A stretch of 64,000 nucleotides of DNA from NCBI GenBank assembly GCA_011390165.1, contig JAABSV010000004.1, positions 62,001 to 126,000 of the forward strand, given 5' to 3'. The position numbers and the translations under genes are program-made. The notes under the pieces are model-generated. The model was not told where the DNA came from, did not search any database, and saw only the letters and a list, made by a program, of their open reading frames with translations. This document shows positions 9,825-54,200 of the stretch, piece by piece; position 1 is the first letter of the stretch, and every line of letters begins with the position of its first letter. The stretch comes from Desulfobulbaceae bacterium. Its GTDB lineage: Bacteria; Desulfobacterota; Desulfobulbia; Desulfobulbales; Desulfocapsaceae.

Positions 9825-12800
9825 ATGACAACGCTCTTTCTCTTTTCCGGCCAGGGTTCCCAGTATTACCAGATGGGGCTGGCCCTCTACCGTGACGAAC
9901 CGCTCTTCCGGCACTGGCTGGAGCGGCTCGACCTGGTGGCAGAGGAACTCCTCGGCGAGTCGATCATCACCCTCCTCTACCAGGAGGACAGGGGTATTGC
10001 CGACCCCTTCATCCGCACCCGGTACAGCCATCCCGCCCTGTTCATGGTCCAGTACGCCCTGGCCCGGACGGTACTCGACAAAGGTGTGGAACCCGACCTG
10101 CTGCTCGGCACCAGCCTTGGTGAATATGTGGCCCTGGCGGTTGCCGGCATGGTTGACCCGGAGGAGTTTCTCGCCCTGCTCATCAACCAGGCAGAGCAGC
10201 TTGAGCAACGCTGCCGGCCCGGGGCGATGCTGGCCGTTCTTGACGATCCGGCCCTGTACCAGGAAAACCGGCTTCTCCGTGAAAAGAGTACCCTGGTGGG
10301 GAGCAGCTGCGACAACCATTTCGTCCTGAGCGGCGAGCGCCAATCCCTCACGGAGATTGCCGCCTGGCTGACTGAGCGGGAAACGCTGCACCTCCAGTTG
10401 CCGGTGGAGTTCGGCTTCCACTCGGCCAACATCGATCCAGTGGCCGATCTTTTCCGTGCCGCCTCGTTTGTCCCCCGGCCGGCCACCTACCCGATCCTCT
10501 CCACCCTCAGCGGCCGGCATCTCACCGCGCCGGCCGTGGAGGGAGAGTATCTCTGGGCCATAGCCCGCCAGCCGATCCGCTTTCGCGAGGCCCTGGACAG
10601 GCTGGCTGAGACCACCAATGACCGATTGACCCTGATCGACTTCGGCCCAGGCGGAAGCAGCGCCGCCTTCGCCGCCCGGCACCAGGCCTTTACAGGGCGG
10701 ACCAGACAGACCAGGCGGACAGAGCTCTACCGGCTGATCACCCCCTTTGCCGGCGCCTCGCCGGATTTTCCCCGGCTGTTCAGCGAGCACGCCGGCCAGA
10801 GCAGGAGAAGACCGACAATGCGTGCTACTCTTTTCCCCGGTCAGGGGTCCCAGTACCAGGGGATGGGCGACGGCCTTTTCGACCGCTATCCCGAGCACTG
10901 CCGGGAGGCCGACAGTATCCTCGGCTACTCCATCGCCCGTCTCTGCCTGGAGAATCCGGACAACCGCCTCTCTCAGACCCGGTACACCCAGCCGGCACTC
11001 TTTGTGGTCAACGCCCTCAGCTGGCTCGACCGCCAGGCGACCGGCTCGCCGCCACCGGCCTATGTCGCCGGCCACAGCCTCGGCGAATACAACGCCCTCT
11101 TTGCCGCCGGAGTGGTCGACTTCGCCACCGGTCTGCGCCTCGTCCAGCGCCGCGGTGAGCTGATGGCTGCCGCCGCCGATGGCGGCATGGCAGCGGTCAT
11201 CGGCATGGCTGAGGAAGAAATTGCCGACCTCCTTGCCGCCAGCCAGTTTCAACGAATCTCCATCGCCAACAGCAACTCGCCGGTTCAGGTGGTGCTCTCC
11301 GGTGACCGGCAGGAGATCGCCGATGCCGAGGCCCTCTTTACCCGAGAGAACTGCCGCTATATCATCCTGAACGTCAGCGGTGCCTTCCACTCCCCCTTCA
11401 TGGCAGCGGCCGCCGACTCCTTCCGGCAGTTCCTGGCCGGTTGCACCTTTTCCCCGGCCCGGCTGCCGGTGATCGCCAACTGCACCGCCCGCCCCTACCT
11501 CCCCGGTGAGGAACGGCAGCTGCTCGCCCGGCAGATGGTCGAGCCGGTCCGCTGGCTGGAGTCGATCCGCTACCTTTGGGGCCAGGGGGTGGACCAGTTC
11601 GAGGAGGTCGGCCCGGGGCAGGTGCTCACCGGCCTGGTGGCAGCGATCAAGGCCGGCGCCACCCCCTTGACTCTCTCCGGACCAACCGAAAGGAGCGGCT
11701 CGGCGCCAACCTCCCCTCCGCCCCCCACCGCCATGGCGACCCAGACGACAGGCAAGCCCTTGACCGCGCAGAGCCTTGGTTGCCAGCGGTTCAAAAGGCT
11801 CTTCGGCCTCGACTATGCCTACCTGGCCGGCGGCATGGGTTGGGGGATTTCCTCGGCCGATCTGGTCTGCCAACTCGGCCGGGCCGGGATGCTCGGATTT
11901 TTCGGCTGCGCCGGCCTCACACCCGTCGAGGTGGAGCGGGCCATCGACACCATCCAGGCCGGCCTCTCCCCTGGCCAGCCCTACGGGATGAACCTCCTCG
12001 CCGGCACTGACGAAGCCGGGCTGGTGGAGCTTTTTCTCCGCCGGGGAGTGACCTCCATAGAAGCGGCAGGCTATGTGCAGATTTCCGCAGCTCTGGTCAA
12101 ATTCAAGCTCTGCGGCCTCAGCCGGCAGGAAGATGGCAGCCCATTGCGCCGCCACCGCCTGCTCGCCAAGCTCTCCCGACCGGAGGTGGCCGAGGCCTTC
12201 CTCGCCCCGGCACCGGCGGCGATGGTTGCCGCCTTACTGGCCGCCGGCGAGGTGAGCGCCGAACAGGCGGAACTGGCCGCCCGGCTCCCCATGGCCGACG
12301 CCATCTGCGTGGTCGCTGACTCGGCCGGGCTCACCGACCGGGGGAGCCTTCCCGCCCTGCTGCCGGCAATCACCACCCTGCGGGACCGACTACGCCAAAA
12401 ATACGGCTACCACGACAGGATCGCCATCGGCGCCGCCGGCGGCATCGGCACCCCGGCGGCAGCGGCGGCGGCCTTTGTCCTCGGTGCCGACTTCATCCTC
12501 ACCGGCTCGATCAACCAATGTACCGTCGAGGCGGGGACCAGTACCCTGGTGAAAGAGATGCTGCAGGGGATGAACGTCCAGGACACCGGCTATGCCCCGG
12601 CCGGCGGCCGCTTTGACTTCGGCTCGAAAGTACAGGTGTTGAAGAAGGGGCTCTTTTTCCCAGCCCGGGCAAACAAGCTCTACGAGTTGTACCGCTTCTA
12701 CCCATCGCTTGCCGACATCGACGAAAAAAACCGACAGGAACTGGAGAAACGCTACTTCCTCCGCCCCCTTGACGAGATTGCCGCCGAGGTGAGGGGCGCT

Positions 12801-13100
12801 CTCAGCCCGGCCGAACGGGCGGCACTCAGCCCTCGTCAGGAGATGGCGGCGGTTTTTCAGTGGTATTTTGACCACAGCTGGCAACTGGCCCTGGCCGGCG
12901 ACGAGACGGAACGGGTCAACTTCCAGATCTCCTGTGGTCCCGCCCTGGGGGCCTTCAACCAGTGGGTCAGGGGGACGGCGGCCGAGTCCTGGCAAAACCG
13001 GCCGGTGGCGGCCATCGGCCGGCACTTGCTCACCGCCACCGCCGAGTTGCTCAACAGACGATTTTCCGAAATGTACCAGCCACCCCCGGCCATGCCGTGA
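9825..13100 (+). CDS. Trans-acting tandem acyltransferase fused to PfaD-type enoyl reductase (AT-AT-ER)
   Basis: A 1091-residue protein with three domains. AT1 (about 1-315) has GTSLGEY (Ser97) instead of GHSxG, and its Arg position reads INQAEQLEQ, so the Arg that binds malonyl carboxylate is missing. AT2 (about 332-620) has GHSLGEY (Ser418), RRGELM with the Arg, and GAFHSPFM, as in malonyl-CoA transferases. The third domain (about 650-1091) is a PfaD-type FMN enoyl reductase, with AYLAGGMGWGIS and IGAAGGIGTPAAAAAA. This architecture is a hallmark of trans-AT polyketide systems: AT2 would malonylate all acyl carrier proteins of the AT-less megasynthases, and AT1 may be an acyl hydrolase that clears stalled chains. 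A purine-rich GAGAGGGGG ribosome-binding site precedes the ATG. The stop overlaps the next gene as GTGA. Confidence 0.95.
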   Translation: MTTLFLFSGQGSQYYQMGLALYRDEPLFRHWLERLDLVAEELLGESIITLLYQEDRGIADPFIRTRYSHPALFMVQYALARTVLDKGVEPDLLLGTSLGEYVALAVAGMVDPEEFLALLINQAEQLEQRCRPGAMLAVLDDPALYQENRLLREKSTLVGSSCDNHFVLSGERQSLTEIAAWLTERETLHLQLPVEFGFHSANIDPVADLFRAASFVPRPATYPILSTLSGRHLTAPAVEGEYLWAIARQPIRFREALDRLAETTNDRLTLIDFGPGGSSAAFAARHQAFTGRTRQTRRTELYRLITPFAGASPDFPRLFSEHAGQSRRRPTMRATLFPGQGSQYQGMGDGLFDRYPEHCREADSILGYSIARLCLENPDNRLSQTRYTQPALFVVNALSWLDRQATGSPPPAYVAGHSLGEYNALFAAGVVDFATGLRLVQRRGELMAAAADGGMAAVIGMAEEEIADLLAASQFQRISIANSNSPVQVVLSGDRQEIADAEALFTRENCRYIILNVSGAFHSPFMAAAADSFRQFLAGCTFSPARLPVIANCTARPYLPGEERQLLARQMVEPVRWLESIRYLWGQGVDQFEEVGPGQVLTGLVAAIKAGATPLTLSGPTERSGSAPTSPPPPTAMATQTTGKPLTAQSLGCQRFKRLFGLDYAYLAGGMGWGISSADLVCQLGRAGMLGFFGCAGLTPVEVERAIDTIQAGLSPGQPYGMNLLAGTDEAGLVELFLRRGVTSIEAAGYVQISAALVKFKLCGLSRQEDGSPLRRHRLLAKLSRPEVAEAFLAPAPAAMVAALLAAGEVSAEQAELAARLPMADAICVVADSAGLTDRGSLPALLPAITTLRDRLRQKYGYHDRIAIGAAGGIGTPAAAAAAFVLGADFILTGSINQCTVEAGTSTLVKEMLQGMNVQDTGYAPAGGRFDFGSKVQVLKKGLFFPARANKLYELYRFYPSLADIDEKNRQELEKRYFLRPLDEIAAEVRGALSPAERAALSPRQEMAAVFQWYFDHSWQLALAGDETERVNFQISCGPALGAFNQWVRGTAAESWQNRPVAAIGRHLLTATAELLNRRFSEMYQPPPAMP

Positions 13101-21587: not shown

Positions 21588-24500
21588 TCAAGGCCCGAGA
21601 AATTCGGAAAGTCTCTTTGCTATCTCGATTACGTGGGGCCTGTCCATGATGGTCGCGTGGCTGGCTGTGAGGGCCACTGTGGTCAACTCGCCGCGCACCA
21701 GTTGCCGCCAGCCCCGGTCCGGGTCGATCTCCTTCGACCCGACACCGGCGGTACACAGCAGTACCGGGCAGTCGAGTTCGGCGGGCCGATAGGCCTCTAG
21801 GGCGGCGCTGTTCTGCCTGAAGAGATGGAAGCGGCGAACCAGGTCGTCCAGAGGCAGCCCCGGCGGCAGCAACCGTTGGTCGGTGGCCAGACGAAGAATA
21901 CGGGCCAGCACGGCCCTGCTGGAGAGCCCTTTGCCAACCAATTTTCGCCAGCCCCGGCCGGCCGACAGCTGTCGCCCGACCCCAAGGTCGGTGGCAAAGT
22001 CGAGAAGGGCGGCTAGTTCCGGGTTTCCTCCGGCGCCACCGGTTCGGGCCAAATGAAGCGATTGTACCATATCGGCCAGTATCCCGGGAGAGTAACTGTC
22101 AAAGAGGGCCAGGAAAGTAACCTCCCTGCCCCGTGCCGCCAACTGTCTCGCCATCTCCCAGGCGACCACCCCGCCCAGGGACCAGCCCCCCAACTGTACC
22201 GGCCCGGTCGGCTGCACCCCTTCCAGCGCCTGGAGGTAGAGGGAGGCCAGCCCCTCAACGGTGCCGGGGTGTTCTCTTTCACTGCCAGGTTCGATCCCCG
22301 GCGACTGCAGGGCGTAGAAGGGGTGGCCGGCGGGAAAGACCCCGGCCAGCTGCTGATAGACCTGCACCGAGCCCCCCACTGGGTGGACGCAGAAAAATGG
22401 TCTCATCCCCCCTTCCGGGCGGAGGGGTACCAGTGGCGACCAGCTGCCGGCCGGCACCTCTGCCCCGGACGAGGCGAGCAGGGCGGCCTGGGCGGCAACG
22501 GTGGGTGCCTGGTAGAGCTGGGCCAGGGTAAGCCGGCGGGCAAATCTTTTTTCCATCGCCGCCAGCAATCGCACCGCCAGCAGAGAGTGGCCGCCGCAGT
22601 CGAAGAAACTCTCCCCGACACCCGGTTGCCGACCCGGCAGGAGCTGCCGCCAGAGGGCCAGCAGCTCCTCTTCCAGTTGGTTGCCCGGCTCCTGGCGGTG
22701 GAGATCGGTCTCGCCGACAACCGCCATCTTCTGCAGGGCCTGCCGGTCCACCTTGCCCCCTGCCGCCACCGGCAGTCGGGGGAGAAAGACAAAGGCGGCT
22801 GGCACCATATGTTCCGGCAACTGCCGGCGCAGGGACTGTCGCAGGCTGCCACTGGCCACCCTCTGCCCCCCCGGTTCGGCAACCAGATAGGCGATGAGAC
22901 TGTCGACCGGGCGGGCCCCTTGGCCGCCCGCTCCCCTTTCTCCATCCCCCTCCGCCACCGCCACCACCGCCGCCTGGGCAACCCCTGCAAGGGCGGTGAG
23001 CAGCGCCTCGATTTCGCCGCACTCCACCCGATACCCCCGCACCTTCACCTGCTGGTCGAGCCGGCCGAGAAACTCCAGGTTGCCATCGGCCAGCCAGCGG
23101 CCGCGATCACCGCTGCGGTAGAGCCGTTCGCCGACGGCAAAGGGGTCGGGGAGAAATTTTTCGGCAGTCAGTGCCGGCTGGTGGAGGTAGCCAATGGCCA
23201 GACCGGCGCCGCCGAGATAGAGTTCCCCCGCCACCCCGATCGGGCAGAGCTGGCCAGAGCTATCAAGAATGGTGACCGTGGCGTGGGGCAACGGCCGGCC
23301 GATGGGCACCGGCGGCGGCGTGGCCGGCACCACCTCACCATCCTTGCGGGCCCCCGCCGGCACCGGGTAGAGGGTGGTGGTGATGGTCGCCTCGGTGGGG
23401 CCGTAGGCGTTGTACAGATCGGCCCCGCTGAGGGAGCTTTGCCGCCAGCGACCGACCGTCGTGGCGGGAAGCGGCTCGCCACCGCTGATGAGCAGACGAA
23501 GAGCAGGAAGGGCACTGCCGGCGGCCTCGCCCTCCCCTTGCAGCAGTTCGTCGAGATAGGCCGGTGGCAGGTCGACAATGGTGACCGCCTGCCGGCGAAG
23601 CAGTTGACGAAAGCGCGGCACCGGCTGCAACCGCTCTTTTGGGATGACCACTGTCGCCCCGGAGAGAAGGGCGGGGAAGATCTGTTCCAGGGCGGTATCG
23701 ACCCCCGGTGGGGCGAACTGGCAGATACGGTCAGCGGCGGTGAGGGCAAAGGCCCGGGCGATGGTCTGGCAGTGGCAGGCGAAGGCGGCATGGGAGACCA
23801 GGACCCCTTTTGCGGTGCCGGTACTTCCCGAGGTATGGATACAATAGGCCGGGTCGTCGCCGATAGGAGATGGCCCCTCCCGGTCCCTTCCCAGCTCCCC
23901 CTCCCCGTCCCCCTCAGCCGCTGGCTCTACCTTGCACTCTTCGACAGCCAGCAACCGACAGCTGCTGCCCGCCGCACACCCGGCCACTCTTTGGTAATGG
24001 GGGCGGTCGGTGAGCAGGAGCGTGCTGCCGCTGTCGGCGACAATCCGGCCGATGCGGGCGATGGGTGTCTCCGGGTCGATGGGGAGCAGCACCCCGCCGG
24101 CAGTGAAAATGGCCAGCATCGCCGCCACCATCGCCGGGCAGGCTGGCAGGCAGAGGGCGACCGGCTGCCCGGCGGCCATCCCCTCATTGTGCAGGAAGGC
24201 GGCCAATTGCCGGGCGTGGTCGGCCAGTTGCCGGTAGGTCACCGCTTCCGCTCCGTACAGCAGGGCCGTGGCGGTCGGCCTGGCGGCCGCCTGCCGGGCA
24301 AAAAGCTCGGAGACCACCCTCTTGTCGGCGGCAGCCACCCTCCCCCGGTTGCCGAAGGCGTACAGGCGCTCAATCTCCTGCCGCCCCAGGGGACTGAAGG
24401 CGGCAATGGGCCGACCGGGTTCTGCCACCACCGCCGCTGCCAGCCGTTGGAAGTGGTCGAGGTAGCGGGCAATGGTCTCCTCGGCAAAGAGCTCAGGACG

Positions 24501-27210
24501 GTAGGAGAGGTGCAGGCGGATCTCGTCGCCACCCACCACCACCTCCAGGGCAAGGTCGCAATCCCCCTCCTGGTGCAGAGCAAACTCGGCTGAACAGTCG
24601 CTGACCAGAAGGGTGTGGTCTTCACTGACCGCCCCCCCCTTTTTCGTCGAACTCTGTGCCTCCCCGTTAACCGTAAACGGCGGCCGATCGAGCTGGTGGA
24701 GGACAAAGATGGCCGGCAAGGCCGTCGTCTGGTCACGACCGGCAAAAAGAGCAAGATCGCTGACCAGGCGACGAAAGGGGTAGGCGGCATGGTCCAGGGC
24801 GGCGGCCACCAGCAGTGCCAGCTGACGAAGATAAGCGGGTAGAGGCAGACTCCGGTCGATGGTGGTGCGAATGGGCAGGGTGTTGACGAAATAGCCGATG
24901 GCGGTGGCGAAACGGTGATCCCACCGCCCCTGGCTGGGAAGGCCGACGACCATCTCCTCCTGGCCGCTGTAGCGGTGGAGAAGGATGGTGTAAAGGGCCA
25001 GGAGCAGCACCGTCAGACTCACCCCCTGCGCCGCCGCCAGCCGGTGCAGGCCGGCACTGAGGGCCGGCGGCAGGCTGAGCACCCGGGTCGCCCCCCCTGA
25101 CTGAGGCGGCAGGGTCCCGGGGCGGTCGTAGGGAAGGGCGAGGGAGGGCAGCTCCCCGGCCAGTTGCCGCTGCCAGTAGGCAAGCATTTCCTGACCGCGC
25201 TGGCCGGCCAGCAGACGCTCTTCGGCTGCGATAAACTGGTGGTAGAGTGGCGGGGCCGCCGCCGCTGGCTCCGGCAGCTGTGCACCCCGAGCCAGGGCGG
25301 TACAGGCGCTTATGAGCTGGCTGACGAAGATCTGCAGGGAGGTGCCGTCGAAGATGATGTGGTGGGCGACAATCAGCAGCAGATCTTCCTGGGCAGAGAT
25401 GAGATGGAGGCGGACGAGGGGCTCCTCCTCCAGGGAGAAGGGCTCTTTGGCCAGGGCGAGGAGCCGGCGCCGCACTCCTTCCCCGTTCAGCCCGGCAAGG
25501 CTGTGCTGGCGGATGGTGAGGGGGCGGTCAGGACGAAGTTGCTGAAACGGCTCCCCGGCCGGCTGGCTCGCCTCGACGGCGAAGGCGGTCTGCAGGATCG
25601 GTTCGCTGCGCAGGAGGTACTCTCCCGCCGCCCGCAGGGTCTCCAAGGCCAGGGGCCGATGCAGACGGAGGAGGAGGGGGATGTTGTAGGCAGTGGTCTC
25701 CGGGGCCAGCCGCTGCAGGACCCAAAGTCCCTTCTGCCCCTCGGAGAGGGGAATGCCGGCGTCGGTTCTGCTCTTTTTGGCGATGGCAACCGGACGGACC
25801 AGGCCGCGCAGCCGCTCTATCTGCCGGTGGTGCCGGGCAAGCAGAGCGGCAAGGGTTTTCTTTGGATGCTCGACCATCGCCGCCACCAGGTCGAGGACCA
25901 GGGTGGAGAGGAAATCGATCTCGCTGGCGGCAAAGAGGTGGCGGCGGTACGAGGTGACCAGGTGGAGGCGGCCTTGACCGGCAATGGCCTGAAACCAGAG
26001 GGTGGCCGGCGCCGGCCCTGCATCTCCTCCGGACATCTCTTCAGCCAGCTCCTCGGCGGCAAGCAGCCGATCGGCGCCGGCCGCGCCGTCAAGAGCGGTG
26101 CAGTTGACCACCACATCGATTAGCCGCCGGGAATACTCCTGGTAGCTGCCCAGTTCGGCCAGGTTGAGAAGTTCGGCGAAATCGACCCGGGCATGTTCCA
26201 GGCAGGCCAGCATCTTCCCCCTCACCTTCGCCAGCAGTCCGGCCACAGGCAGGCCGGGATCGAGTTCCCCGACGGTAAAGGGAAGGAGAAGAATATTGGT
26301 GAACTCCCCCAGGGTCCTCTGCAGCCCGCTCCGCAGGCGCTGGTTGTTGACCAGCTGCACCATCGCCTGACTGTTGTCCATGCCGTGGACGAGCAGGATG
26401 GCGATGGCGGTGGTAAAGAGCTGGGCGGGAGTGCTGCCGGTGTCACGGCAGAAGGCCGCCATCGCCCGATACCCATCATCGGGCATGGCGTGGAGGGCGC
26501 CACCGGCGGCGCCCAGCTGCTCCGGGGAGAGAGTGGCGGGGTCGCTCTTCCAGGGCAGACGCATGGCCTGGTCGAGGCCGGTGGCCCCCTTTAGCCCCTT
26601 CTCCGCCGGCGCCAGCATTGTCTGCCAAAACTGTCGACTGGCCGCCTGCCGCCCCTCGTCGGCAAACTGACTGAGGGCGTACTGCCAATACTGTTCGCCG
26701 ACCACCGGCGGCGAGGGCTCTTCGCCCTGCTGCAGGCTGCGGGCTGCGGCGAGCAACTGGTCGAGGAGCAGACCGGGGGTGTAGGCATCGGCAATGCTGT
26801 GGTGGGCCACCAGGGCCAGATAGCCATGCTCCTCTTCGCGCCAGCACCACAGCCTGAGAAGGGGGGCCTCGGTCAGGGTAAACTGCCGCCGCCGCTCGCC
26901 GGCAAGAAAACGCGGAGCCCCCTCCAGGTCGGGCAGAGCAAGGGGATGCACCGGCACCGCCACCGCCGGCAGGACCAGCTGAGCCCATCCGCCATCGAGG
27001 GGCTGATAACAGGTGCGGAGGATATCCTGGCTGCTCGCCACCACCGCCATGGCCCTCTGCAGAAGGGTTGGTTCGGCCAGTTCACTGGGCAGAGTGAAAA
27101 TATGGAGGATATTCCAGGCGCTCCCCTCTTCGCCCGCCGGCAGGGCGAGAAGCCGCCGCTGCTCGCGGGAAAGTGGTGCGAGGAGCGGACCAGGGATCTG
27201 CCGGCCGGCC
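21588..27210 (-). other. PKS-B module 8: C-C-A-PCP-TE
   Basis: Two condensation domains are adjacent: the first with HHSIADA near residue 9375 (Gly of the motif changed to Ala), the second with the canonical HHIIFDG near 9856. The adenylation domain (about 10,140-10,720; IHTSGSTGTAKG) gives specificity residues D-T-E-D-I-G-A-I-T-K by eye; two acidic pocket residues suggest a basic side chain. The PCP serine is near 10,781 in CGGHSLLAV. The terminal thioesterase has GGWSLGG (Ser near 10,916), Asp in LFDSY and the His in TASHATIMD, and ends the protein. Confidence 0.88.
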
Positions 27211-30200
27211 TGGAATGGCCGGGTCGGATCGGGGCCGGGCCCCCGGCCGGCGGCGGGGAGAGCGTCCAATCGGCCGCCGGCCGCCACTGCCGAAAGAGCG
27301 CCCGGCTCCGCTGCACGTGCCTGCACCAGCGCTGCCAGGCGGGCGATACTGTTGTCGCCGACCAGATCGACCAGCTGGATGGTCAGATTATAGCGCTCGT
27401 TGACCGCAGCGAGCAGACGCATGCTCATCAGCGAGTCGAGGCCAAGGGCACTGAAACTGCTCTCCGGATCGAGTTCTTCCCGCCGGTGGCCGGTGATGGC
27501 GCTGACAGTTTCGCCAAGAAAGGCGGCAACGGCGGCGGCAACGGAATCGAAACCGGTATCAGAACCAGGATCGGAACCGGTATCGGAACCAGGATCGGAA
27601 CCGGCATCGGAACCAGGATCGGAGCCGGCATCGGAACCAGGATCGGAACCGGCATCGGAACCGGCATCGGAACGTGTGCCGGTACCTGCATCGGAAAGTG
27701 TTTTGGAACTGGTGTCGGAACGGCTATCGGCCGGCTCAGCCACCGACGACTCGAGAGTCCCGGCCATGGGCGGCAGTGCACACGGCCGCCGGGCAAAGGG
27801 GTAACCCGGCAGCTCGAGGGGAAGGGCTCTGTCGGCCGGGAGATTCGGGGTAATGTTTTCGCCATAACGGTAAGCTGCCGCCAGGGCGTGGAGCCCCTCT
27901 GCCTCGCCACCCCCTGCCGAGGCTTTCGGGTCTACCGGCCAAGAATCGGGTGCGCCGGGCAAAGGCCCCTCGACAGCCAACAGGGCGGCCAAACGGTCGA
28001 TCAGCTCATCGCGACTGGCCACCACCAGGGCGCAACGGTGGGGAAAGTGGTCCCGACGGTGAAGGAGGTTGGCGGCGAGGCGCTCAAGATCGAACGCATC
28101 CCGTTCCGAACGGGCCTCCTGCCCCGCCACCAAATCCCCTTCCAGACTCCCTTCCAGACTCCCTTCCGGACTCCCTTCCGGACTCCCTTCCGGACTCCCT
28201 TCCGAATACCCTTCCAGATACCTTTTCAGCTCGAGGAGCCGCCGGCGCAGGGCCTCCTCACTCTTCGCCGAGAGGGCAATCAGCACCGCCGGCGAGGGTG
28301 GTGCTCCCGGCCGCCGGCCACACTTCGGGGGGGGAGAGGCGAGAACCAGGTGTACATTGATGCCGGTGGTCGAGGTGGAGCTGACCGTGGCCCGCCGTAT
28401 CCCCCGCTCCCCTTCGCCCTCAACGGCCGGCCAGGGGATATTCTCACGATTGACGAAAAATGGGCTGTCGGCCAGCTCCATTGCCGGGTTGGCCTCGACC
28501 AAATGGGGGGTCACCGGGATGGTCCGATGGCGCAGGGCGAGGAGCACTTTCAGAAGATGGCCCATCCCGGAGGCGGCGAAGGCGTGGCCGATGTTGTTTT
28601 CGACACTACCGAGGAGACAGAAGCGCCGCCGCCCGGTGTAACCCCGGAAGGCCCTGGTCAGGGCCTGAACCTCCATCAGATCGCCGAGGGGGGTACCACC
28701 GGCACTGGCCTCCACCAGGCCGATATTGGCCGGGTCGATGCCATGCCGGGCATAGACCGCCCTGTAGAGCCGCTCCTGCGCTTTGACACTGGGGGCCGCC
28801 ATACCGTTGGTCCGGCCATTGTGGCTGCTGCCCCACCCCTCGATCACCGCATCGATCCGGTCACCGTCGGCAACCGCCTGCGCCAGCGGCTTCAGCACCA
28901 CCACCGCCACAACCTCCCCCGGCAACATCCCCCGGGCTCCGACATCGAGGGCGCCGCGGTGTTCCCGGCCGCCATACTCCGGACAGAAGAGCCCGGCCTG
29001 GCCGCCGGCCAGAAGCAGATTGGCGGTGGAGTAGACCATCACCCCGCCGGCCAGGGCCGCCTCGCAGTTGCCGAGAAGAAGCTGGTCACAGGCCTGGGCC
29101 ACCGCCAGGAGGGCCGAGGCGCAGCCAGCATCCACCGTCTGGCAGGGGCCGGTCAGGTTGAGGCTGAAGGAGACCCGGCCGGGAATGCCGGAACCGGTGA
29201 CGTGTGGGGAGACGCCAGTCACCTCCCGCAACCGCAGGCCATGGTCACCCCCCCCGCCACAGAAGACGCCCCAAGGGCGACCGGTGAGGCTTTCCGGGCC
29301 GATACCGGCATTTTCCAGGGCGTGCCAGGCCTCCTGGAGAAAGAGGCGTTCGGCCGGGTCGAGAAGTGCCGCTTCAACCGGCGAGATGTGAAAGAAGAGC
29401 GGATCAAAGAGGTCGATCCCCTGCAGAAAACCGCCGTGGCGAAGGGTCAGGGCCTGTCCGGCCGCCGTTTTCCCCAGCGGCGCGGCCAGCTCCCAGCCGC
29501 GGTCCACCGGCAAGGGGGTGAAGGCGGCCTGTCCGCTCAGAAGAAGCTGCCAGAAACCGGCAAGGTCGGTCGCGCCCGGGAAGCGGCCGGCAGCCCCGAT
29601 GATGGCGATTTTGCCGGCATACGATGATGCGAGGGGCGATGCCGGCGTGGATGCGGGGCCATCGCCCCCCTTGCCGGTGGCCCGGCTCGACTCGGACGGG
29701 CTTAGGGTCCGCAGGATCAGCCGACAGAGTTCCTCCTGCGCCTCCCGGCCATGGAGAAGATCAAAGTGGTTGTTGCCCGCCACCGGTACGGTTTGCAGCT
29801 GCGGCAAAAGCCGGTGCCAGCCGGCAAAAAAGGGTGCCAGCCCCCCCCGTTCCCTCTGCACCCTCTCCAGATAGGCCGGGGTGAAGGCGGCCTCGGCAGT
29901 GGCGCTGGCGCTCTCACTGCGGAGGAGGAAGGCGGCCAGTTCCGGCTGGGGGAGGGAGACGGCCCGATAGCGGCGCAGGGCGGCGAGGTTGGCGAGATGG
30001 ACCCTGGCCATCGACTCCAGCCGCTCAAGAAGGATTCTCTTCTCCTGGCCGACGCCACGTCCGGCGATCAACTCCACCAGACGGGCGGAGATGGCCGAGG
30101 CCGGTGCCTGCTGCCAGGGGGTGTCGAGATCGGCGAGCTCATCGGCGGTGAGCACCAACTCTTTCCAAACGACCCTGCCCTCCTCCTTCAGCCGGCGAAA

Positions 30201-33200
30201 CCGGGGGTCGAGGTGGAGCAGGGTGATCAGCAGAAAATTGGCGTTGATCAGCCAGTTCTCCCCTGCATCAATCCGCCACAGCCGACCATCCTCGGACGAT
30301 TCGATAAGGGGGGCCTCAATCAGGAAAAGCCCCTGCATCGCCATCCCCCGGAGCTGCAGCTGCCGGGCGGTCTCGTAGGCCAGAGTCCCTCCCAGGGAGG
30401 AGCCGAGCAGCCCGCAAGGCCCTTCCGGGCGCACGGCGGCGATGATCTCGGCATAGTGGGAGGCCATCGCCGGCAGAGAGCTGAGCGGGGTGGAAGGCTG
30501 CCGGCTGAGAAAGCCCCGGGCACGGATGCCAAGCAGCCGGAAACGCTCCCCGGCCGCCTCGGCAAGGGGGTTGTAAAGACCGACATCACCGGACATCGGG
30601 TGGAAACAAAAGAGCAGCGGCCCCTCCCCGGCCACCTGCAGGGGAATCAGCTCCGGATAGTACCGGCCGAGGCGGCCGAGGCGCTGGCGCAGGCCATCTC
30701 GTCCCTCAGTTGCCCTCTCTGCAGCTGTACCCGCCAAATCCAACCGAGGCTTATCGGACCGAAGCTGATCGGACAGAGGCTGATCGGACCAGGGCGACGC
30801 AGGCTGCGGCGGCAAGGCTGCCGGTGCCGCCAAACGAACCGGCAGCACATGGAGACCCTCGTTGCTCTGTTGGAGATGGTCGGCCAGCTCAGCGATGGAG
30901 GGGTAGTCGAAGACCAGGGTCTCACGCAGGGGACGGCCCAGCTCCGCCGACAACCGGCCGATAAAGCGGACCACATGGAGCGAATCAAGGCCCAGCTCGA
31001 GAAAGGTGGCCGATTCGTCCACTTCGTCTTCTTCGGCAATACAGAGAATCTCCCGCACCTGTTTGACCAGCAGAGGGCGGAGGACACCCTCCTCGCCGCC
31101 TCCCAAACCATCGTCCGGCCGGCCGGGATACCGACGCGGTTCGGCCCGCTCCTGCCGCCCTTCGACACAGAGGTCCGACTGGTCTGATTGCTCTGATTGC
31201 TCTGATTGCACTGATTGCTCTGATTGGTGAGATTGCTCTGGTTGCTCTGACGGCTCTGCTCCGCCCCGGCCCGGCCCCTCACCATACCAGAAGTGGCGGC
31301 GGGCGAAGGGGTAGGTGGGCAGCGGGCAGCGCGGCGGCGGCTGGGGGTAGAGGTCCTGCCAGGCAATGGCATTGACGCCCTGCAGCCAGCACCGGGCCAG
31401 GCTCTCCAGGTCGGCGGTGGCCACCGCCTTGCCGATCGGCGTACCCACCCCTCCGGACACTTCGCCCTGCCCCTGCTGCCGGCGCCCCTGGATATCACGG
31501 CTGTCACTGCTCCACACTGCCGCCACCGCCCGCCGCTCAAGCCAGGCTTGCAGTGAGGCCACCAGCTGCTGCCGGTTACCGGCTACTATCGCCAGCCGAT
31601 GGCGCATCGCCTCTCTCCCCACCTGCAGGGTATAGGCCAGGGAGGCCAGCGAGGGAAGAGGCTCTTCGCCTGCCTCCAGAAAGGCGAGAAGGTTGCCGGC
31701 AGCCTGGCGGAGCTGCCCGCCGGTGCGGGCCGAGAGGAGAATCAGCACCTCAGCCTCGGCGGCTTTCTGGAATGGTGTCGGTCTTGCCTCCGGGCGATAT
31801 TCGGCCACCACCATTGCCGCGGCGGAGCCGCCCGCCCCCACCGAGTTGATCAGGACATTGCGACCTGCGCCACCCCTCCCCGGCTCCGGCCATGGCTCCA
31901 CCTGGCAGACCAGGCGCAGCCGGCCGGTCGCCTCGCGCAGGGCCGGGACCAGCCGTTCCGGGCGGACCAGGGTCGGCGCCAGGGTACGGTGCTGCAGTTG
32001 CCAGAGAACCTTGCTCAGCTGGGCCATCCCCGCCGTTGCCTCGAGGTGGCCGATATTCGCCTTCACCGTGCCGAGGGGGATGGGATTGGGGGCACCCGTC
32101 TCGGCCTGGAAGAGTTGCTGCAGGGCCGCCAGTTCCACCGCATCACCCATTGCCGAACCGTTGGCCGCCGCCTCGATGTAGTCCACCTCCGCCGGGGCGA
32201 TGGCAGCCCGCTGCAGCACGGTGCGGAGCAGCTCCCGCTGCTGTCCGACGTCGGGGGCGGTGTAGCTCAGGCCCCTGCCGCCGTGGCTGATCGCCGTCGC
32301 CCGGATTACCCCCCTGATCTGGTCGCCGTCCGCCTCCGCCGCGGCAAGGGGCTTGAGGAGAATAGCCCCGACCCCCTCGCCGGGGAGGAAACCTCGACCG
32401 CTCTCGGCAAAGCAGTGGCATTCGCCCTCATCGCTGACCATCCCGGCCAGCGAGAGGTCGATGAAGGTACGGGGGTGGAGGTAGAGGTTGGCCGACCCGA
32501 CGATGGCCAGACGGCACTCGCCGCGGTGGATGTGGGCACAGGCCTCATGGATGGCGGTGAGTGCCGAAGAGCACATGGTGTCGATGGCCAGGCTTGGACC
32601 GGTCAGGTTGAGCTGGAAGGAGACCCGGTTGGCCATACTGCTGAACGAGGTCGAGGGGAGCCTGGCCCTGGCCGGCTCGCCATCGAGGCGGCTGTGCAGA
32701 ACAAAACCGGTCTTGGTTACGCCGATAAAGACCCCCACCGAGCGGTTATAGCGCTCGGCCAGAGTCGACGGCGCATAGCCGCCATCCTCCATCGCCTGCC
32801 AACAAGTGGTAAGCAGCAATCGTTCCTGGGGGTCGATATGGAGAGCGTCCACCGGGGAGATAGTAAAGAAGAGCGGATCAAACTCGGCGAAGCCATCGAG
32901 AAAGCCACCATGCTTGCAGGCACTGAGCAGGCGGCGGCCGGCCTCCTCCCGCCCCTGATGGTAAAAACCGGCCAGGGGCCACCGTTGCGGAGGAATCTCG
33001 GTAATGGTGCAGCGGCCGGCGAGCAGGTTCCGCCAGTAGGCCGGCAGGTCAGGGGCGCCGGGGTAGCGGCCGGCGATGCCGATGATGGCGATGGGTTCAA
33101 ATCGGGCCTCGCCCGGGACCAGCTGGCCGGCTCGGCCCGGGGTCAGCGGACGTTCTTGCGCCGGACGCCCACTTTCCTCACCCGCCACCACCCCGCCGGG

Positions 33201-36200
33201 AAAAGTCCAGGCCTCACAGGCGGGGCGATGGTGGGCGAGGAAATAGTCGGCCAATTCGGCCAGGGTCCGGTACTGGTAGAAGAGGGTTTTCGGAATCTCT
33301 TGGAAAACAACGGCGAGCTGCCGGTTCAGGCCGTTGACGGTGATCGAGTCGATCCCGTAGCTCTCCAGGGGCTCGTCGGCGCCGATCATCGCCGGCGAGA
33401 GTTTGATGCCTTCGCCGATCAGCCCGGCCAGGCGGCGGCGGAAGGCAGGGCGCAGCGTCTCCTCCTCGACGCCGAGGACGGCCACAGGCCGGCCGGCCTC
33501 GCCATTCGACCAGGCGGCCCGCAACCGCTGCGGATCGCCGGCCAGAACCATAACCTGCGGATATGGCCCGGCCAGCCCCCGGGCCAGGGCCGCCAGGCCG
33601 GCGCTGGTTGACAGAGGCGCCACCCCGTGGCTCTCGGCAAGCTCGTTCTGGCGGGCGGGGTCGAGCCGCATCCCCCCCTCCCGCCAGTAGGGCCAGTTGA
33701 GGGAAAGGGTCCGGCCCCGGGCCAGACCCCGGTCGACCAGCTGCTGACGATGGGCGGCATAGCTGTCCAGAAAGGCGTTGGCGCAGTTGTAATCGCCCTG
33801 CCCGGGGTTGCCGGAAATCGCCGACAGCGAGGAGAAGAGGACGAAGAAGTCGAGGGGTAGTCGGCTGCTGGCCCGATCGAGGTTGACCACGCCGGCCACC
33901 TTCGGGGCAAGGACCCTCCGGAACTCTTCCTCGCTCTTGCGGAGCAGATAGTTGTCGGCAACCACCCCGGCGGCGTGGATAATGCCGTGCAGGCTGCCAC
34001 AATCGGCCTCAATCCGTGCAAACAATGCCTGCACCGCCGCCCATTCGCCGATATCCGCCTGGTGCACGACCACCCTCGCCCCAAGGGCAGCCAGTTCCTG
34101 CAGCCAGGCCGGCTGGCCCATCTCGTCGGCAGCAGCCAAAGGGGAACGGCCGACAAGGACCAGGGTAGGCCCCTCCACCTGGCGGGCAATGGCCCGGGCG
34201 ACAAGCCGTCCGAGGCCACCGGTGCCACCGCTCAGCAGGTAGACACCACCCGGACGGAGGGGAAGCTGTGGCGGTGCTTTTTCCTGCTGTTCGCCAGTGA
34301 TTTCCCGCCAGGCAAGGATCTGCCGCCTTCCCTGCCGGTAGCGGGCCTGGCCATCCTCCGGGTGGCGGCTGTTCTCCGCCACCCGCCGCAGCAGTTGCAG
34401 CAGCCCGGCCCTGTCGCCTGGGGCCGGCAGGACGAGGAGTTGGGTGGCGAGCGCCGGGTTTTCTCGAGGGACGGTGCGCAACAGACCGGCGAGGCCGGAC
34501 AGCGTGGAGAAAAGCAGCCCCTGATTCTCTTCGGCCCCCTGACCCGTCTCCCCCGGCTCGACAACCACTACCTGGAGGAGCCGGCGGGCAGCCGGTGGGC
34601 CGGCCAGAATCTCTTTCAGCCGGTGGAAAAGCTGGCAGGCGATATCGGTAAAGTACTCGTCGGCATGCACCGCCCCGCTCTCCAGTTGCCCACAGACCAC
34701 CCCCGGCAGAAGATCCGCCGCCGCCGCGGCCAGTTCCCCCTCCTGCCAGACGGGCCCGCTGCTAGCCGACATCCCGGCCGGGGGCTGGACCCAGAAGAGC
34801 CAGTGGCCGGCAAAGGCAACGGCCGTGCCGGAACCGTCACCCGGCTCCCCGGCCGGCTGTTCCTGCCAGACCGGCCGGCCGATGAGCGGCAGAGAGGCAG
34901 CCGCCGTCTCGCCTGATTGGGTCGCTGCCATAGCGGTATGGGGCGCCGGCGGCATGGGGGGTACCGCCGGCCCGGCCAGCAGGGTCGGCTCGGCCCAGTA
35001 GCGCTCCCGGGCAAAGGGGTAACCGGGAAGATGGAGCCGCTTGGGTGGCCTGGCAGCGTGCAGCCGCTCCCAGGCAACCGGCACGCCCCTGACCCAGCCT
35101 GCGGCAATCCGCTCATACCTGCCACCGGCCAGCCAGTGGTCGAGCAGCACCTTCGCCTCTTCGCTCCACTCACCCTCCCCAGCCCCGTGTACCTCACCCT
35201 GCCAGTACCCCTCACCGGCCTTCTCTCCGGCAAAAAAACGCGCCATGGCGGAAAGTAGGGCATCGTGCTGGTCGGCCAGGAACACCACCCGCGCCGCCAT
35301 CGGCTGACGGCCGCTTTGCAGGGTCCAGGCCAGATCGGCCAGGGCAATGCTTTGCCCGGATTCGTTGGCCAGCCTCAAAAAGCCGCTGAGCCTGTTGACC
35401 GATTCCCGCAGACGGGCCTCGTTCTTTGCCGAAATCGGTATCAGTTGCGGCAACTCCCCGCCCGCTGGCGATAAGGCATCTGCCGCCGGTGGCCGATAGT
35501 CTTCCACCACGAGATGGACGTTGGTGCCACTGTGGCCAAACGAGCTCAACGCCGCCAGCAGCGGCGCTCGCTCGGCCGAGGGCCAGGCAACCAGTTCCCG
35601 GTTTATCGTAAAGGGGGAATCGGACCAGGCGATGGCCGGATGGCCTTGACGAAAACCAGGCAGACCGGGAATCTGCCGGTGCTGCATGGCAAGGAGGATC
35701 TTGATCAGACCGATCACCCCGGCAGCGGCGGCGGTGTGGCCGATGTTCGCCTTGGCCGTACCCAGAGTACAATACTGTTTGCGCTCGGTGAACTGTCGGA
35801 AGGCCCGCTGCGCGGCGTTGATCTCCACCGGGTCGCCCAGTTGGGTGGCGGTGCCGTGCGCCTCGAAATAGCTGATCGCCGCCGGGTTGACGGCGAACCG
35901 ACGGTAGACCCTGACCAGAAGCTCCTCCTGAGCGGTGCCGCTGGGGGCGGTTATGCCATTGCTGGCCCCGTCCTGGTTCTGCCCGGAGGCCCGGATCACC
36001 CCGTAAATCGGGTCACCGTCGGCAATGGCCGCAGACAGACGCTTGAGGACCACCACCCCGACCCCCTCGGCCATGAGGGTGCCGTCGGCAGCGGCGTCAA
36101 AGGGGGTGCAGCGGCCAGTGGGCGAGAGCATGCCGATGCCGGCCAGCCCCTGCAGCATCGGCTGGCTAAGGCAGGCAAAAACCCCACCGGCCAGGGCAAG

Positions 36201-39200
36201 CTCCGACTCCCTCTGGCGGAGACTGGTGCAGGCCAGATGGATGGCCACCGCCGAGGAGGAGCAGCCGGTGTTCACCACCACCGCCTCCCCCTTGAGGTTG
36301 AGGAAGTAGGCGAGCCGTGCGGCAATCAGGGCATCGGAGGCACCGGTAAAGGAGTCGTGGGCGTAGCCGCTGGGTTCGGCACCGATGTAGATGCTGACCA
36401 GGTTGTTGGCCAGGCTCTTTGGATTGATCCCGGCATCTTCCAGGGCCTTCCACCCTTCCTGAAGGATCAGCCGCTGGTGGGGGTTCATCGCCTCCGCCTC
36501 TTTTGGCGATATGTGGAAGAAGAGCGGGTCGAAACAGGCCCGCTCCTCGAGCACTCCTCCCCGGCTGCAAGGATCGGCTACCCTCATTTCCGGTCGTAGG
36601 GGGTCGCGCAGGTACTCTGGCGGCAATGGGCCGATACCCTCCCGGCCGTCGCGGAGATTGGCCCAGAAGGCATGGATATCGGTGGCGCCGGGAAACTGGC
36701 CGGCCATGCCGATCACGGCAATACCCTCAATTGCCTCGATTGCCTCAATTGCCTCAATTGCCTCGGTTGAGGCCCTGCCAGTGGTCGGAGTGGTCGAGGA
36801 GTCCGGGGAGGCCGGGAAGGCCAGGGACGATTCTCCCGGCCGAGCGGCAAAGGCCGCAGCGTCGGCTGCCGGAGACATCGGCAGGTGGCGGGCAGGTTCC
36901 CCCTCACCCCGGCCGCCGGGCGAGGGCGGCGGGCCGAGGGTCAGCAGATAGCCGGCAAGGCTCTGTACGGTCGAGTATTCGAAGAGAATGGCGGTACTGA
37001 GAGTGAGCCCCAGGTGGCGATTGAGCCGGTCGACAAAGGCCACCCCGAGAATCGAATCGAGACCGTAGTCGGCAAAGGGAATTTCCGGGTCGAGCCGGTC
37101 GATATCGGTCTCCAGGGCCTCGGCCAGGCTGGCAAGGAGGATGGCGGTGAGGCGCCGCCCGGAGGATGCCTCCGCCACCGCCGGGGCAGGGGAAGAGCTG
37201 GAGGAAGAGGAGGCCGGTAGGCTGGTCGTGAGTTTGGCCGGGTTGGTTGCGGGCTTGGTGGCAAGGTTGGTGGCTGCCGGCCTGTCGGCTGCCGAAGCCG
37301 GCGCCGGCGCCGGGAAAGGCGAGCGGGTGGCGAGCAGGCCGTCACTGACGGCAACAATCAGGCTCTGTCCCAGCCCGACCATCTCCTCGGCGGGAAAGAG
37401 GAGGGGGGCAAAGCCCTCCTCCAGCAGCAACCGCTGCCAGGTGGTCGGAGCAAGTAGCGGGGTGCCGGCAATGCGCAGCTCCGGGTCCCGGTATCGCCAC
37501 CAGCCGTCGAGCAAACCGAAGGTGAGGGTGCTGAACAGGCTTCGGGCACTGGCCTCGGTGATGAGCAGCAGCCCGTTGCCACGGAGCACCGCCTTGATAT
37601 GGCGCAGGCTATCCCGGATGCTGGCGGTGGCGTGGAGGACGTTGGTGGCGATGGCCAGATCAAAGCCCTCACCCACCGCAGCGAGCGGATCGGGGTCCTC
37701 GATATCCCAGTGGCGGCAGGTGAGGAAGGGGAAACGGCCGGCAAACTGCCTCGCGCCGTGCCGCAGGAAGGCAGCGGAGATATCGGTGTAGCAGTACTCG
37801 GCCGGCTGTGGCTGCATGGCGGCGAGCCGCGGCAGAAGCACGGCGGTGGTGGCACCGGTTCCGGCACCGATCTCGACGACCCTGATCCTCGTCGACGGCT
37901 CCACGGCCTGCCGGGCGCCAACGGCCGCTGCCGCCACCCTGGCCACCAGTTCCGGGAAGAGGTTGGCCCCGCCCTGCTCCTCGTCATCACCGCCGGCGGC
38001 GCCATGACCGTAAAGAGGGGCGACCTGCTCCAGGGAGGCCCGGGGGAAGAGGACCGAGGTGGCGGCAACGGGCCCCTTGAGAATCTCCGGTAGCTGGTGC
38101 AGGCAGCTCTCGGCCAGGGCCAGGGCAGCCGAGACCTCGCCACTGGGCAGAGAGGCCTGCCGGCGGGCCTGCAGCTCCCCGGCCAGGGCCTCTTCCGCCG
38201 GCAGCCAGCTGTCACCATCCGGGGAAGCCGCCGGCATGCCCTCTTCAACGCCCAGCTCGAGACCGGCCGGGCTCCGGCGCAGATAGCCATGCGCCACCAA
38301 CACCCGGCAGCACTCGTGCCACCAGCGCCGATAGCTGTCCAGCACCCCGACCCGCTGCCGCAGCTCCTCCTCGGCACCGAGTGCCGGCGAACCCGGCTCT
38401 GGGTCGATTCCCGCCTCGTGGAGCAGCCGACGCCATTGTCGGTAGAGCCCCCGGGCCAGCCACCCGTCAAAGGCGGTCGACCAGCGGGCGGCGGCCTCTA
38501 GAAGCGGCTGGCTGGCGCGCAGCCGCCCCTCTTCTTCGCCAAGGAGGCGACGGAGTTCCGGCCACAGGAAGGGGAGTGGCGGCGCGGTCGGGGCCAGACG
38601 GAAACGGTTGTCGCCGTCGGTGGGCACCATGGCCGCCACCGGACCACTTAACTGCATACAGAGGAGCTGCTCCAGCCGCTCGGCGCGCAGGGCGGCGGTA
38701 AACCGCTCGAAACAGGCAAAGCCCTGCCGGTCTTCCAGCCAGCTGATATTCGGGTTGGGCACCCCAGCGGAGAAGGAGGCCCGCCAGAAGCCCCAGTTGA
38801 TGCTACCGAGAGGAGTTGTCGTGTGGGGGGCTGGGGGGGTGGTTAAGGGGATGGCTGAATGGGTAGCTGATGGGGTGACTGAGGGGGGAATCGCAACCAG
38901 GGCGGCCACCAGGGTGTCGGCGGCGGTGATGGCGCTGGCGTAGGCCGGCATCCGGGCGGCGCCGGAGAAGGAGAAGGCCTGAGCGGAGGAGAAATAGCAG
39001 ATGAAGTCAAGCCGCTGAGTGGCCAGGGCGGCGGCGAAATTGCCGCTGCCCTGGCTCTTGACGGCGAGAATGCGGCTGAACTCTTCCTCGTCGATGGCCT
39101 CCCCCGGCTCGGTAAGGGCAAAGTGCAGGCCGGCGAAGATCGCCCCGTGGATTTCCGAAAAGCGGCCGACGATGGCCGCCACCGCCGCACCGATGGCGGC

Positions 39201-51200: not shown

Positions 51201-54200
51201 GAGTTGACGTCCCTGCGGGTCCATCAGTCGGGCGTTCGCCGCCGAAATGTTGAAAAAACCGGCGTCGAAGAGGTACTTGCTCTCCCCCAGCGTACACTGC
51301 CTGGCTACATAGGCGGGGTTCAGGCAGAGTTCGGCCGGCACCCCGGCCCGGCGCAGCTCTTCCGGGGTGAACTCGGTGGCACAATCCCTTCCTGCACAGA
51401 GGTTGCGCCAGAACTGCCGATAATCTTTTGATTCGGGGAAATGGCAGGAGATACCGATGATTGCCAGGCTCTCCCGATAATAGTCCGGCCAGTCGCTGGC
51501 GCCGTCATGAGCGGCCGCGGCAAGACCGGGGCGGTTTCGGGGAGGACCCTCCTCGCCTGCCGGCAGGACGGGGGCGACCGGCAGTCGTTCGCCCAGATGG
51601 GCGCTGAGCGCCCGGACCGTCGGATACTTGAACAGGGTAGTGACCGGCAGGGGACGGCCGAGGAGGGCACTGAGCCGGTCAGCCAGCAGCACCGCCAGCA
51701 GGGAATTGCCACCCGCCTCCCAGAAGCCCTGATCCAGGGCGATCTCGTTTTGCTCGAGCACCTCCCGCCACCCGGCCAATACCGTCTGCACCATCTTGCT
51801 GTCGGGCGCAGGCAGGCCGGCCGGCAGCCGTTCCGCCGCCACCGGCACGGCCTCACCCTCCTCTTTCGGGGTGGCCACCCCCGCCTGCGGGCCGACCAGG
51901 GTGAGTTCCTGAGCCGCCAGGGCCCGTCGGTCCATTTTGCCGTTGGCGGTCAGCGGCAGCCGGTCGAGGAGGGAGAACTGGCCGGGAACCATGAAGTCCG
52001 GCAGCTGCCGGCGAAGAGTACGGCTGAGGGCCGTCAGATCGATACCGTCGCCGGAGTCGGCCGGCACCAGACAGGCCACCAGACGGCCGCCTCCCCCCTC
52101 CCCCTTCACCACCACCACCGCCTGGCGCACCCCTGAAAAGGCCTGCAGGGCCGCCTCGATCTCGGCCAGTTCGATACGCATCCCGCGCAGTTTGATCTGC
52201 TCGTCGACCCGCCCCAGGTACTCGATGCTGCCGTCCTCCCGCCATCTGGCCAGGTCTCCGGTACGGTACAACCGTTCCCCGTCAGCACGGCCCAGATCCT
52301 CGGCCCGCTGCAGGTGGACAAACTTCTCCGCGGTCAGCTCAGGCTGGTGCAGGTACCCTTCGGCCAGGCAACAGCCGGCCAGACAGATCTCCCCCACCAC
52401 CCCCACCGGGACCGGCCGAAGGTGGCGGTTGAGCAGATAGAGCCGGCTGTTGGCGATGGGGCGGCCGACGCTGATCAGCCCATCCCGGTCGAGGCGCTGC
52501 AACGACACCCAGATGGTCGCTTCGGTGGGGCCGTAGAGGTTCCAGGCCCGACTGCCGCTGGCCCGGAAGGCCTGCAACAGGCTCGGCGGCAGGGGTTCAC
52601 CGCCACAGAGGAGCCGCACCCCCTGGCGGTTGCGCCAACCGGTATGGAAGAGCATCGTCCAGGTAGTCGGTGTGGCCTGCAGCAGTTCCGGCCGCAAGCG
52701 CTCAATCTCTTGCTGCAGTTCAACCGGGTTGCCGGCCAGGCCAGCCGGGGCGATATGGCACTCTCCCCCCACCACGAGAGGGAGAAAAAGCTCCAGGGCG
52801 GCGATATCAAAAGAGCAGGTGGTCAGGGCGAGCAGCTTCTCGCCGGCCTGCATACCGGGTTCCCGGGCCATGGCGAGAAGGAAATTGGTCAGAGCCCGAT
52901 GCGCCACCATCACCCCCTTGGGGCGGCCGGTGCTGCCGGAGGTGAAGATGACATAGGCGAGATGGCCGTTACCGGCCACCGGCCGCAGTTCTCCCTGCCG
53001 GGCGGCCTCTTCGGCCAACAGCGGCCAGTCCCGGTCGAGGGCGACCAGCAGCAGCTCGCCGGCGGTGCTCTCTGCCCCTTGCAGAGCACGTACAGTCAGC
53101 TCGGCCCGGTGAGCCACCGCCGCCACCTTTTCGACCACCCCGCCGCTGCTGAGAAGCAACCGGGCTCCACTTTCCTTAAGCATCCCGGCCAGCCGGTCGA
53201 CCGGGTAGCCGGGGTCGAGGGGGACATAGGCCGCACCGGATTTGAGAATAGCCAGCAGCCCCACCAGCATCGCCGGAGAGCGCTCGGCGCAGACCGCCAC
53301 CAGAGCCCCCGGCCCCACCCCTTTGCCCTGCAGGGCGCGAGCGAGCAGGGTGCTTTGTTGGTCCAGTTCTCCATAGCTGAGGCTGACCCCGCCTCCGACT
53401 GCCGCCACTGCCGTCGGTTGCCGTCGCGCCTGGCGGCCAAAAAGGGTGTGGAGACAGTCATCGGAAAGAGGGGTATCGCCGCCATGACCGGCCTGCAGCA
53501 GCTGTTCCCGTTCGGCCGGCACGAGGGGGCATATTTCCGCGAAGGTCATGGCGGGATTGGCCAGTACCTGCGCAAGCAGCGAGAGGATGTGGCCAAGGAA
53601 GCGGTCGATGGCGGCCTGATCGAGGAGTTCAGGGAGATACTTGACCTTCAGCTGAAAACTGTCCTGGCGCTCCTGCACCTCCAGAACCAGTTCGTACTCC
53701 CCCTCCTGGCCGATTTCATCGATCAGTTCCAGGGGGAGTTGCCCGGCGGAGGTCGGGGCCGGGGAGAAATTCTGGTAGGCAAAGGCGGCCTGAAAGAGGG
53801 GGCGGTCGACTCGCCCCGGCAGAGCCAGCTGACGCAGCAGGGCCGGCAGCGGGTAGCTGTGGGCGACGGCATCAAGCATCGTTGCCTGGAGTCTGGCCAG
53901 GAAGCCGGCAAAGCTCTCCTCCGGGCGGATACGGCTGCGCACCGCCACCATGTTGAGGCAGAAGCCGACCACCTCGGCAAGGCCGGCGGCACTCCGTTCA
54001 TTGACCGGCATGCCGACCACAATATCGCTGACGGAACAGCTGTACGAGAGCACCCCCTTGAACAGGGCGAGAAAGAGGGTGGAGGGAAAAAGATTGTGCT
54101 GGCGGCAGAAGGCCCGCAACCGGCAGCTTAACGCCGTTGGCAGGAGAAGGCGGCGGGAGGCCCCGACCGGCGCGGACAGGTCGGCTGATCGGCTTCTCCC

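Follow-up and report, generated by a model that had tools for sequence, protein, structure and literature searches.

In the window analyzed here, a stretch of 64,000 nucleotides from a Desulfobulbaceae bacterium (assembly GCA_011390165.1, contig JAABSV010000004.1, positions 62,001 to 126,000), a single minus-strand open reading frame (21588-54968) encodes an 11,126-amino-acid (aa) polyketide synthase-nonribosomal peptide synthetase (PKS-NRPS) with two directly adjacent condensation (C) domains, C1 and C2, near its C terminus. On balance, C1 is probably the final domain of a conserved non-elongating bimodule, KS0a-ACP-TE_B-KS0b-ACP-C*, which would modify a beta-hydroxyacyl chain before an ordinary C2-A-PCP-TE module takes over (KS0, non-elongating ketosynthase; ACP, acyl carrier protein; TE_B, branching-type thioesterase; C*, the noncanonical C domain family that includes C1; A, adenylation domain; PCP, peptidyl carrier protein; TE, thioesterase). 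From sequence comparison, we are fairly sure that this cassette is a unit and that its role is O-acylation. Ester-type acyl transfer as the reaction of C* itself is a more tentative proposal, made by analogy.

Neighboring C domains are commonly taken to mean that one module carries out two condensation steps, and an earlier note on this DNA had framed the pair as serving a single NRPS module. Domain scans confirmed the layout that the note described, KS0-ACP-C1-C2-A-PCP-TE, with the motifs HHSIADA in C1 and HHIIFDG in C2 and a linker of about 55 aa that holds neither an A nor a carrier domain; as the note had also stated, no epimerase domain is found in the C1-C2 region. Both are full-length C domains scoring far above chance (Pfam Condensation, 132 bits for C1 and 283 bits for C2, compared with 254 bits for the N-terminal C domain of the same protein). 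They share only 29% identity and fall into separate clades. In a C-domain phylogeny of the kind the note had suggested (45 domains, three C* and 42 others), the three C* formed a single clade with 100/99 support on a long branch, distinct from C2 and from the remaining C domains. Because the tree tool warned of long branches joining at the base of the C* group, the tree was used only to show that the C* belong together and are distinct from C2, and the nearest relative of C* was not taken from it. C2 grouped with its protein's own N-terminal C domain and with C domains placed after PKS modules, in a tree that contained no reference starter C domains.

The other two C* come from different assembly lines. 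A search with C1 found a domain 37-39% identical to it (HHSLADA) on a second contig, C99, of the same metagenome-assembled genome (3.59 Mb in 108 contigs, the window lying in contig C42). This C*, which also follows KS0-ACP, is the end of a 7,336-aa PKS; the gene after it opens TE-ACP-KS-DH-KR-MT (DH, dehydratase; KR, ketoreductase; MT, methyltransferase), and no C, A or PCP domain occurs downstream up to the contig end. The third C* (HHAHADA; 31% identical, E = 5e-40, far above every other plasmid match) forms the end of the PKS protein WP_203528975, encoded on plasmid pT173a of Ensifer canadensis, where the next protein begins with an ordinary C-A(Thr)-PCP. The "tandem" layout is thus fused in the window, split over two proteins in Ensifer and lacking its second partner in C99. 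On these comparisons, C1 travels with the domains that precede it, not with C2, and belongs to the upstream KS0-ACP unit rather than to a tandem pair. The role of the C* family cannot, by the same comparisons, require an adjacent A or PCP domain, since C* is followed by TE-ACP-KS in C99 and ends its protein in Ensifer. A second amide bond, one of the note's suggestions for C1, is likewise unlikely given the C99 arrangement.

The order KS0a-ACP-TE-KS0b-ACP-C* is common to the window, C99 and pT173a, the Ensifer line having an extra ACP before the TE. KS0a forms a single clade across the three lines (support, 0.97), as does KS0b (support, 1.0; 48.7% identity between the window and Ensifer copies), and the parts of the cassette would therefore have been inherited as a unit. 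In KS0b of the window, VEASAGGTPLGD replaces VEAHGTGTxLGD, so that the first catalytic His is gone, while the active-site Cys (DAGCAS) is intact. This His is absent from both KS0 types in general (AANGS in KS0a; SAGGT, NATGT or NASGS in KS0b), the active Cys being retained, whereas HGTGT or HGTAT stands at this place in the ordinary KS domains of these proteins. In all three lines, the module ahead of the cassette carries a KR, and domain scans detected no DH in it; because such a module precedes the cassette each time, it is predicted to leave a beta-hydroxyl, and a beta-hydroxyacyl chain is the probable substrate. The arrangement shares KS-KR-ACP followed by a non-elongating KS0 with type A dehydrating bimodules, but no DH follows the KS0.

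The internal thioesterase points to the job of the cassette. Its putative catalytic residues (Ser in GSSLGG, Glu in LIEAP and His in NNHFD) agree in position in all three lines. The best sequence match of the window TE_B in the Protein Data Bank (PDB) was 7r0x, entitled "Structure of the branching thioesterase from oocydin biosynthesis" (E = 3.3e-29), and the relation to this solved oocydin TE_B is full length (residues 4-325); the next PDB chain reached about 1e-13 over some 110 aa of the common N-terminal part only. The TE after C* in C99 also had 7r0x as its top match (E = 1.1e-27). Furthermore, the C99 line contains (in C99A) a non-elongating KS (EVAANGS) that is sister to the KS0a clade and is accompanied by an O-MT/CMAS-type methyltransferase. 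Because of the matches to 7r0x and this sister relationship, the cassette appears to serve O-modification, most simply O-acylation, and the data are consistent with KS0a as the receiver for it. PMC11260071 cites two papers whose titles concern modular and branching acylation in the oocydin system. An AlphaFold model of the TE (pLDDT, 43) was too weak for structural judgment.

C* itself combines conservation with loss. HHxxxD is retained in all three domains, and the Gly after it, whose change to Ala the note had taken as a hint of altered function, is Ala in each; this Gly is also absent from 10 of the 42 other sampled C domains, so the substitution is weak evidence alone and gains weight beside the other fixed changes. 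These are Ser to Thr two residues past the Ala (Ser in 40 of 42 others), Gly to Gln at a near-universal core Gly (Gly in 40 of 42) and Arg to Pro in the C5 region (Arg in 37 of 42). Since length and catalytic residues are kept at 32-37% pairwise identity among three divergent lines, C* is probably not a random or decaying remnant, and the degenerate, closed remnant that the note had considered is contradicted by the same conservation. The residues lost in all three C* speak against ordinary peptide bond formation. C* shares the catalytic HHxxxD with LCL-type domains but lacks their C5 Arg and near-universal core Gly, and in C99 it lacks the adjacent amino acid-loaded PCP. Heterocyclization (Cy) and epimerization classes were rejected, as C* has HHxxxD, not DxxxxD, and the region holds no epimerase domain.

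Putting these features together, the upstream KR module would supply the beta-hydroxyl, KS0a would move the chain to the first ACP (ACPa), TE_B would O-acylate the hydroxyl, and KS0b would hand the branched chain to the second ACP (ACPb). C* could then perform a further acyl transfer with a hydroxyl as the nucleophile (ester formation), after which C2 would make the sole amide bond, joining a basic amino acid, before the terminal TE releases the product. Ester formation is preferred for C* because HHxxxD domains of the C fold do this in trans-acyltransferase (trans-AT) lines (BurF, PMC12304814) and because the C99 line presents no amine after C*. The note's suggestion of an ester-forming C1 accordingly suits the context beside a branching-type TE, the reaction itself being a prediction. 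Several points weigh against it. An ester-forming C* is not strictly needed if TE_B already O-acylates; with Pro for Arg and Gln for Gly, condensation activity could have been lost; and although SgcC5 (4znm), a solved ester-forming C domain, was the second-best C-domain match for C1 alone, it is not the closest solved relative of the C* family profile (50 bits, compared with 89 bits for Txo1). An AlphaFold model of C* (pLDDT, 61) recovered the C-domain fold by weak matches only and was too poor to judge the tunnel.

A broader proposal, which we hold to be rather unlikely, is that C* represents a separate functional class with the condensation fold, HHxxxDA and no C5 Arg, confined to non-elongating O-acylation bimodules and catalyzing non-peptide chemistry, such as elimination of the acylated hydroxyl or a second O-acyl transfer. 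Elimination taken by itself is improbable: acylation by TE_B would make the beta-hydroxyl a leaving group and the C* His would remove it to give a (Z)-alkene, so that the cassette would do without a DH what the type A dehydrating bimodule (KS-KR-ACP-KS0-DH-ACP) does with one. The sequence of a KR module and then KS0 modules follows the same logic, the upstream module lacks a DH in every line, a solved dehydrating C domain exists (AmbE-CmodAA), and another has been reported for legonindolizidine biosynthesis (PMC8748450). However, to judge by the titles cited for the oocydin system, a branching TE normally installs a lasting ester, and C* shows no special grouping with AmbE (40 bits, compared with 89 bits for Txo1).

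We think it similarly improbable that C* has lost bond making and is kept as a gate, docking or dimerization element at the junction of the O-acylation unit with the module that follows. That the C5 Arg and the near-universal Gly are lost in all three C* would suit such a role, as would the lowest conservation among the large domains of the cassette (32-37%, compared with 44-61% for KS and TE) and the presence of the non-HH HtmB2-CT domain among the nearest solved relatives. Nevertheless, HHxxxD is present in all three C* despite strong divergence, the domain is full length, and the clade is conserved across two distant groups. More doubtful still is fusion of the ACPb-bound chain by C* with a separately loaded hydroxy acid or polyketide supplied in trans. 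The BurF C domain joins two chains by an ester in a trans-AT line (PMC12304814), an ACP-C-ACP esterification has been proposed for pateamine (PMC7157528), and the TE-ACP after C* in C99 could hold a partner, but no carrier lies between C* and C2 in the window or Ensifer and no second starter line was identified. A true tandem, in which C1 and C2 share the downstream PCP (for example to acylate a single diamino acid twice) or C1 is a relic copy of C2, would account for their adjacency in the window and the predicted basic, possibly diamino, residue but is very improbable in view of their low identity and different clades and of the C* positions in C99 and Ensifer.

Beyond these three lines, no further C* was found in 258 genomes of the order (the host genome and 257 others), 297 genomes of the phylum or 386 cyanobacteria; ordinary C domains reached at most 130 bits in these searches, compared with more than 660 bits for C*. 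The plasmid search, through which alone proteobacteria were covered, returned only pT173a, and viral contigs gave no match. A genome-collection scan using a two-sequence C* alignment with poor peptide patterns returned only an ordinary Nostocales NRPS. Matches to KS0b on Azospirillum, Streptomyces, Nostoc, Eleftheria and Methylosinus plasmids proved to be ordinary KS domains without the cassette. Two other genomes of the same order carry NRPS genes with adjacent C-type domains (HHSISDV, then HHIVLDF), which are unrelated to C*.

The C99 contig represents a second large trans-AT PKS line of the host genome, with an AMP-ligase start, a KS0-methyltransferase-ACP module and the cassette. The pT173a trans-AT PKS-NRPS cluster has a MaoC-SDR-FkbH start, the cassette, the Thr-predicted module, DH pairs, an HMG-CoA synthase set and a P450, and an alpha-ketoacid dehydrogenase gene set adjoins it. 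Its logic presumably resembles that of FR901464/spliceostatin. Sesbanimide was dropped as an assignment for this cluster; the sesbanimide paper contains no condensation-domain text.

The window line is a trans-AT system, because neither PKS protein contains an AT domain by domain scans and a separate AT/enoyl-reductase protein is encoded nearby (Table 1). The upstream gene of the same line runs past the contig end, and the two PKS genes together occupy 21588-63999 (minus strand); domain scans detected no DH in either protein, despite many KR and several MT domains. Read by GrsA numbering and the general meaning of A-domain specificity codes, the residues of the last A domain suggest a basic amino acid (Arg/Lys/Orn). 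The 11,126-aa protein begins with C-A-PCP (53535-54815 and 51960-53444, minus strand), and the specificity residues of this N-terminal A domain, DILQLGLIW, are the usual glycine code. A serine carboxypeptidase gene (PF00450; 19718-21541, minus strand) directly follows the PKS gene on the same strand and, given the predicted basic last residue, might trim the product; in other strains, similar trimming of the sesbanimide Arg was suspected.

Table 1. Features of the cassette, the terminal module and the trans-acting AT protein, in window coordinates (HMM, hidden Markov model)
Feature	Coordinates	Strand	Basis
Elongating KS just upstream of the cassette (aa 6081-6470)	35559..36728	-	Own HMM scan; EAHGTATQLGD intact
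KR of the module upstream of the cassette	33666..34241	-	Domain scans
KS0a, non-elongating, IEAAANGSAMGD, active Cys DTMCSSA	31896..33101	-	HMM scan, motif reading, tree
ACPa (GLDSL)	30861..31073	-	Domain scan
TE_B, embedded branching type (GSSLGG ... LIEAP ... NNHFD)	29739..30641	-	PF00975; best PDB match 7r0x
KS0b, second non-elongating KS, VEASAGGTPLGD, active Cys DAGCAS	28386..29615	-	Motif reading, tree
ACPb (GLDSL)	27309..27521	-	Domain scan
C1 (C*), noncanonical C domain, HHSIADA (aa 9255-9690)	25899..27206	-	HMM scans, tree, alignment
C2, ordinary C domain, HHIIFDG (aa 9745-10190)	24399..25736	-	Pfam; groups with post-PKS C domains
Last A domain (D-T-E-D-I-G-A-I-T)	22776..24305	-	Specificity positions by GrsA numbering
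PCP of the terminal NRPS module	22461..22625	-	Own HMM scan
Terminal TE	21597..22421	-	Domain scans
Separate AT/enoyl-reductase protein	9825..13100	+	Domain scans

The comparison assigns the first C domain to a portable PKS unit that includes a branching thioesterase. If this is correct, structures predicted from such clusters would change to a single amide and a single O-acyl branch, and the unit might serve to acylate selected hydroxyls while a polyketide is being assembled. Its presence in a cultured rhizobium offers a testable setting for noncanonical C-domain function. Branching thioesterases, non-elongating KS modules and ester-forming C domains are each already known; no description of a KS0-ACP-TE_B-KS0-ACP-C cassette was found in the literature searched, which left out key oocydin and FR901464/thailanstatin papers. 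We suspect that oocydin- or FR901464-type lines may contain it.

Among known systems, the oocydin O-acetylation unit (TE_B, PDB 7R0X) likewise has a TE inside a trans-AT PKS, with full-length similarity and the same Ser ... Glu ... His pattern in the alignment, a comparison that covered the TE sequence. Modular and branching acylation in that system are reportedly the subject of Fraley et al. 2022 and Hemmerling et al. 2022, to go by their titles. The type A dehydrating bimodule (hangtaimycin and others, PMC8456789) resembles the cassette in that a KR module is followed by a non-elongating KS0 modifying the beta-hydroxyl, but it uses a DH where TE_B and C* stand here. The ester-forming BurF C domain of malleicyprol (PMC12304814) is, like C*, a noncanonical C domain in a trans-AT line that keeps HHxxxDx; however, it is flanked by an ACP and a loaded T domain and links two chains, whereas C* has no carrier directly after it. 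Lasonolide LasO (PMC9600693) is likewise a trans-AT PKS protein ending in a C domain, one proposed for macrocyclizing release, whereas the lines with C* continue. Finally, the icosalide double chain-initiating NRPS (PMC8949500) shares an additional starter-type C domain embedded in the assembly line; in contrast to the cassette, that domain loads a beta-hydroxy fatty acid in an NRPS that has no KS0/TE_B unit.

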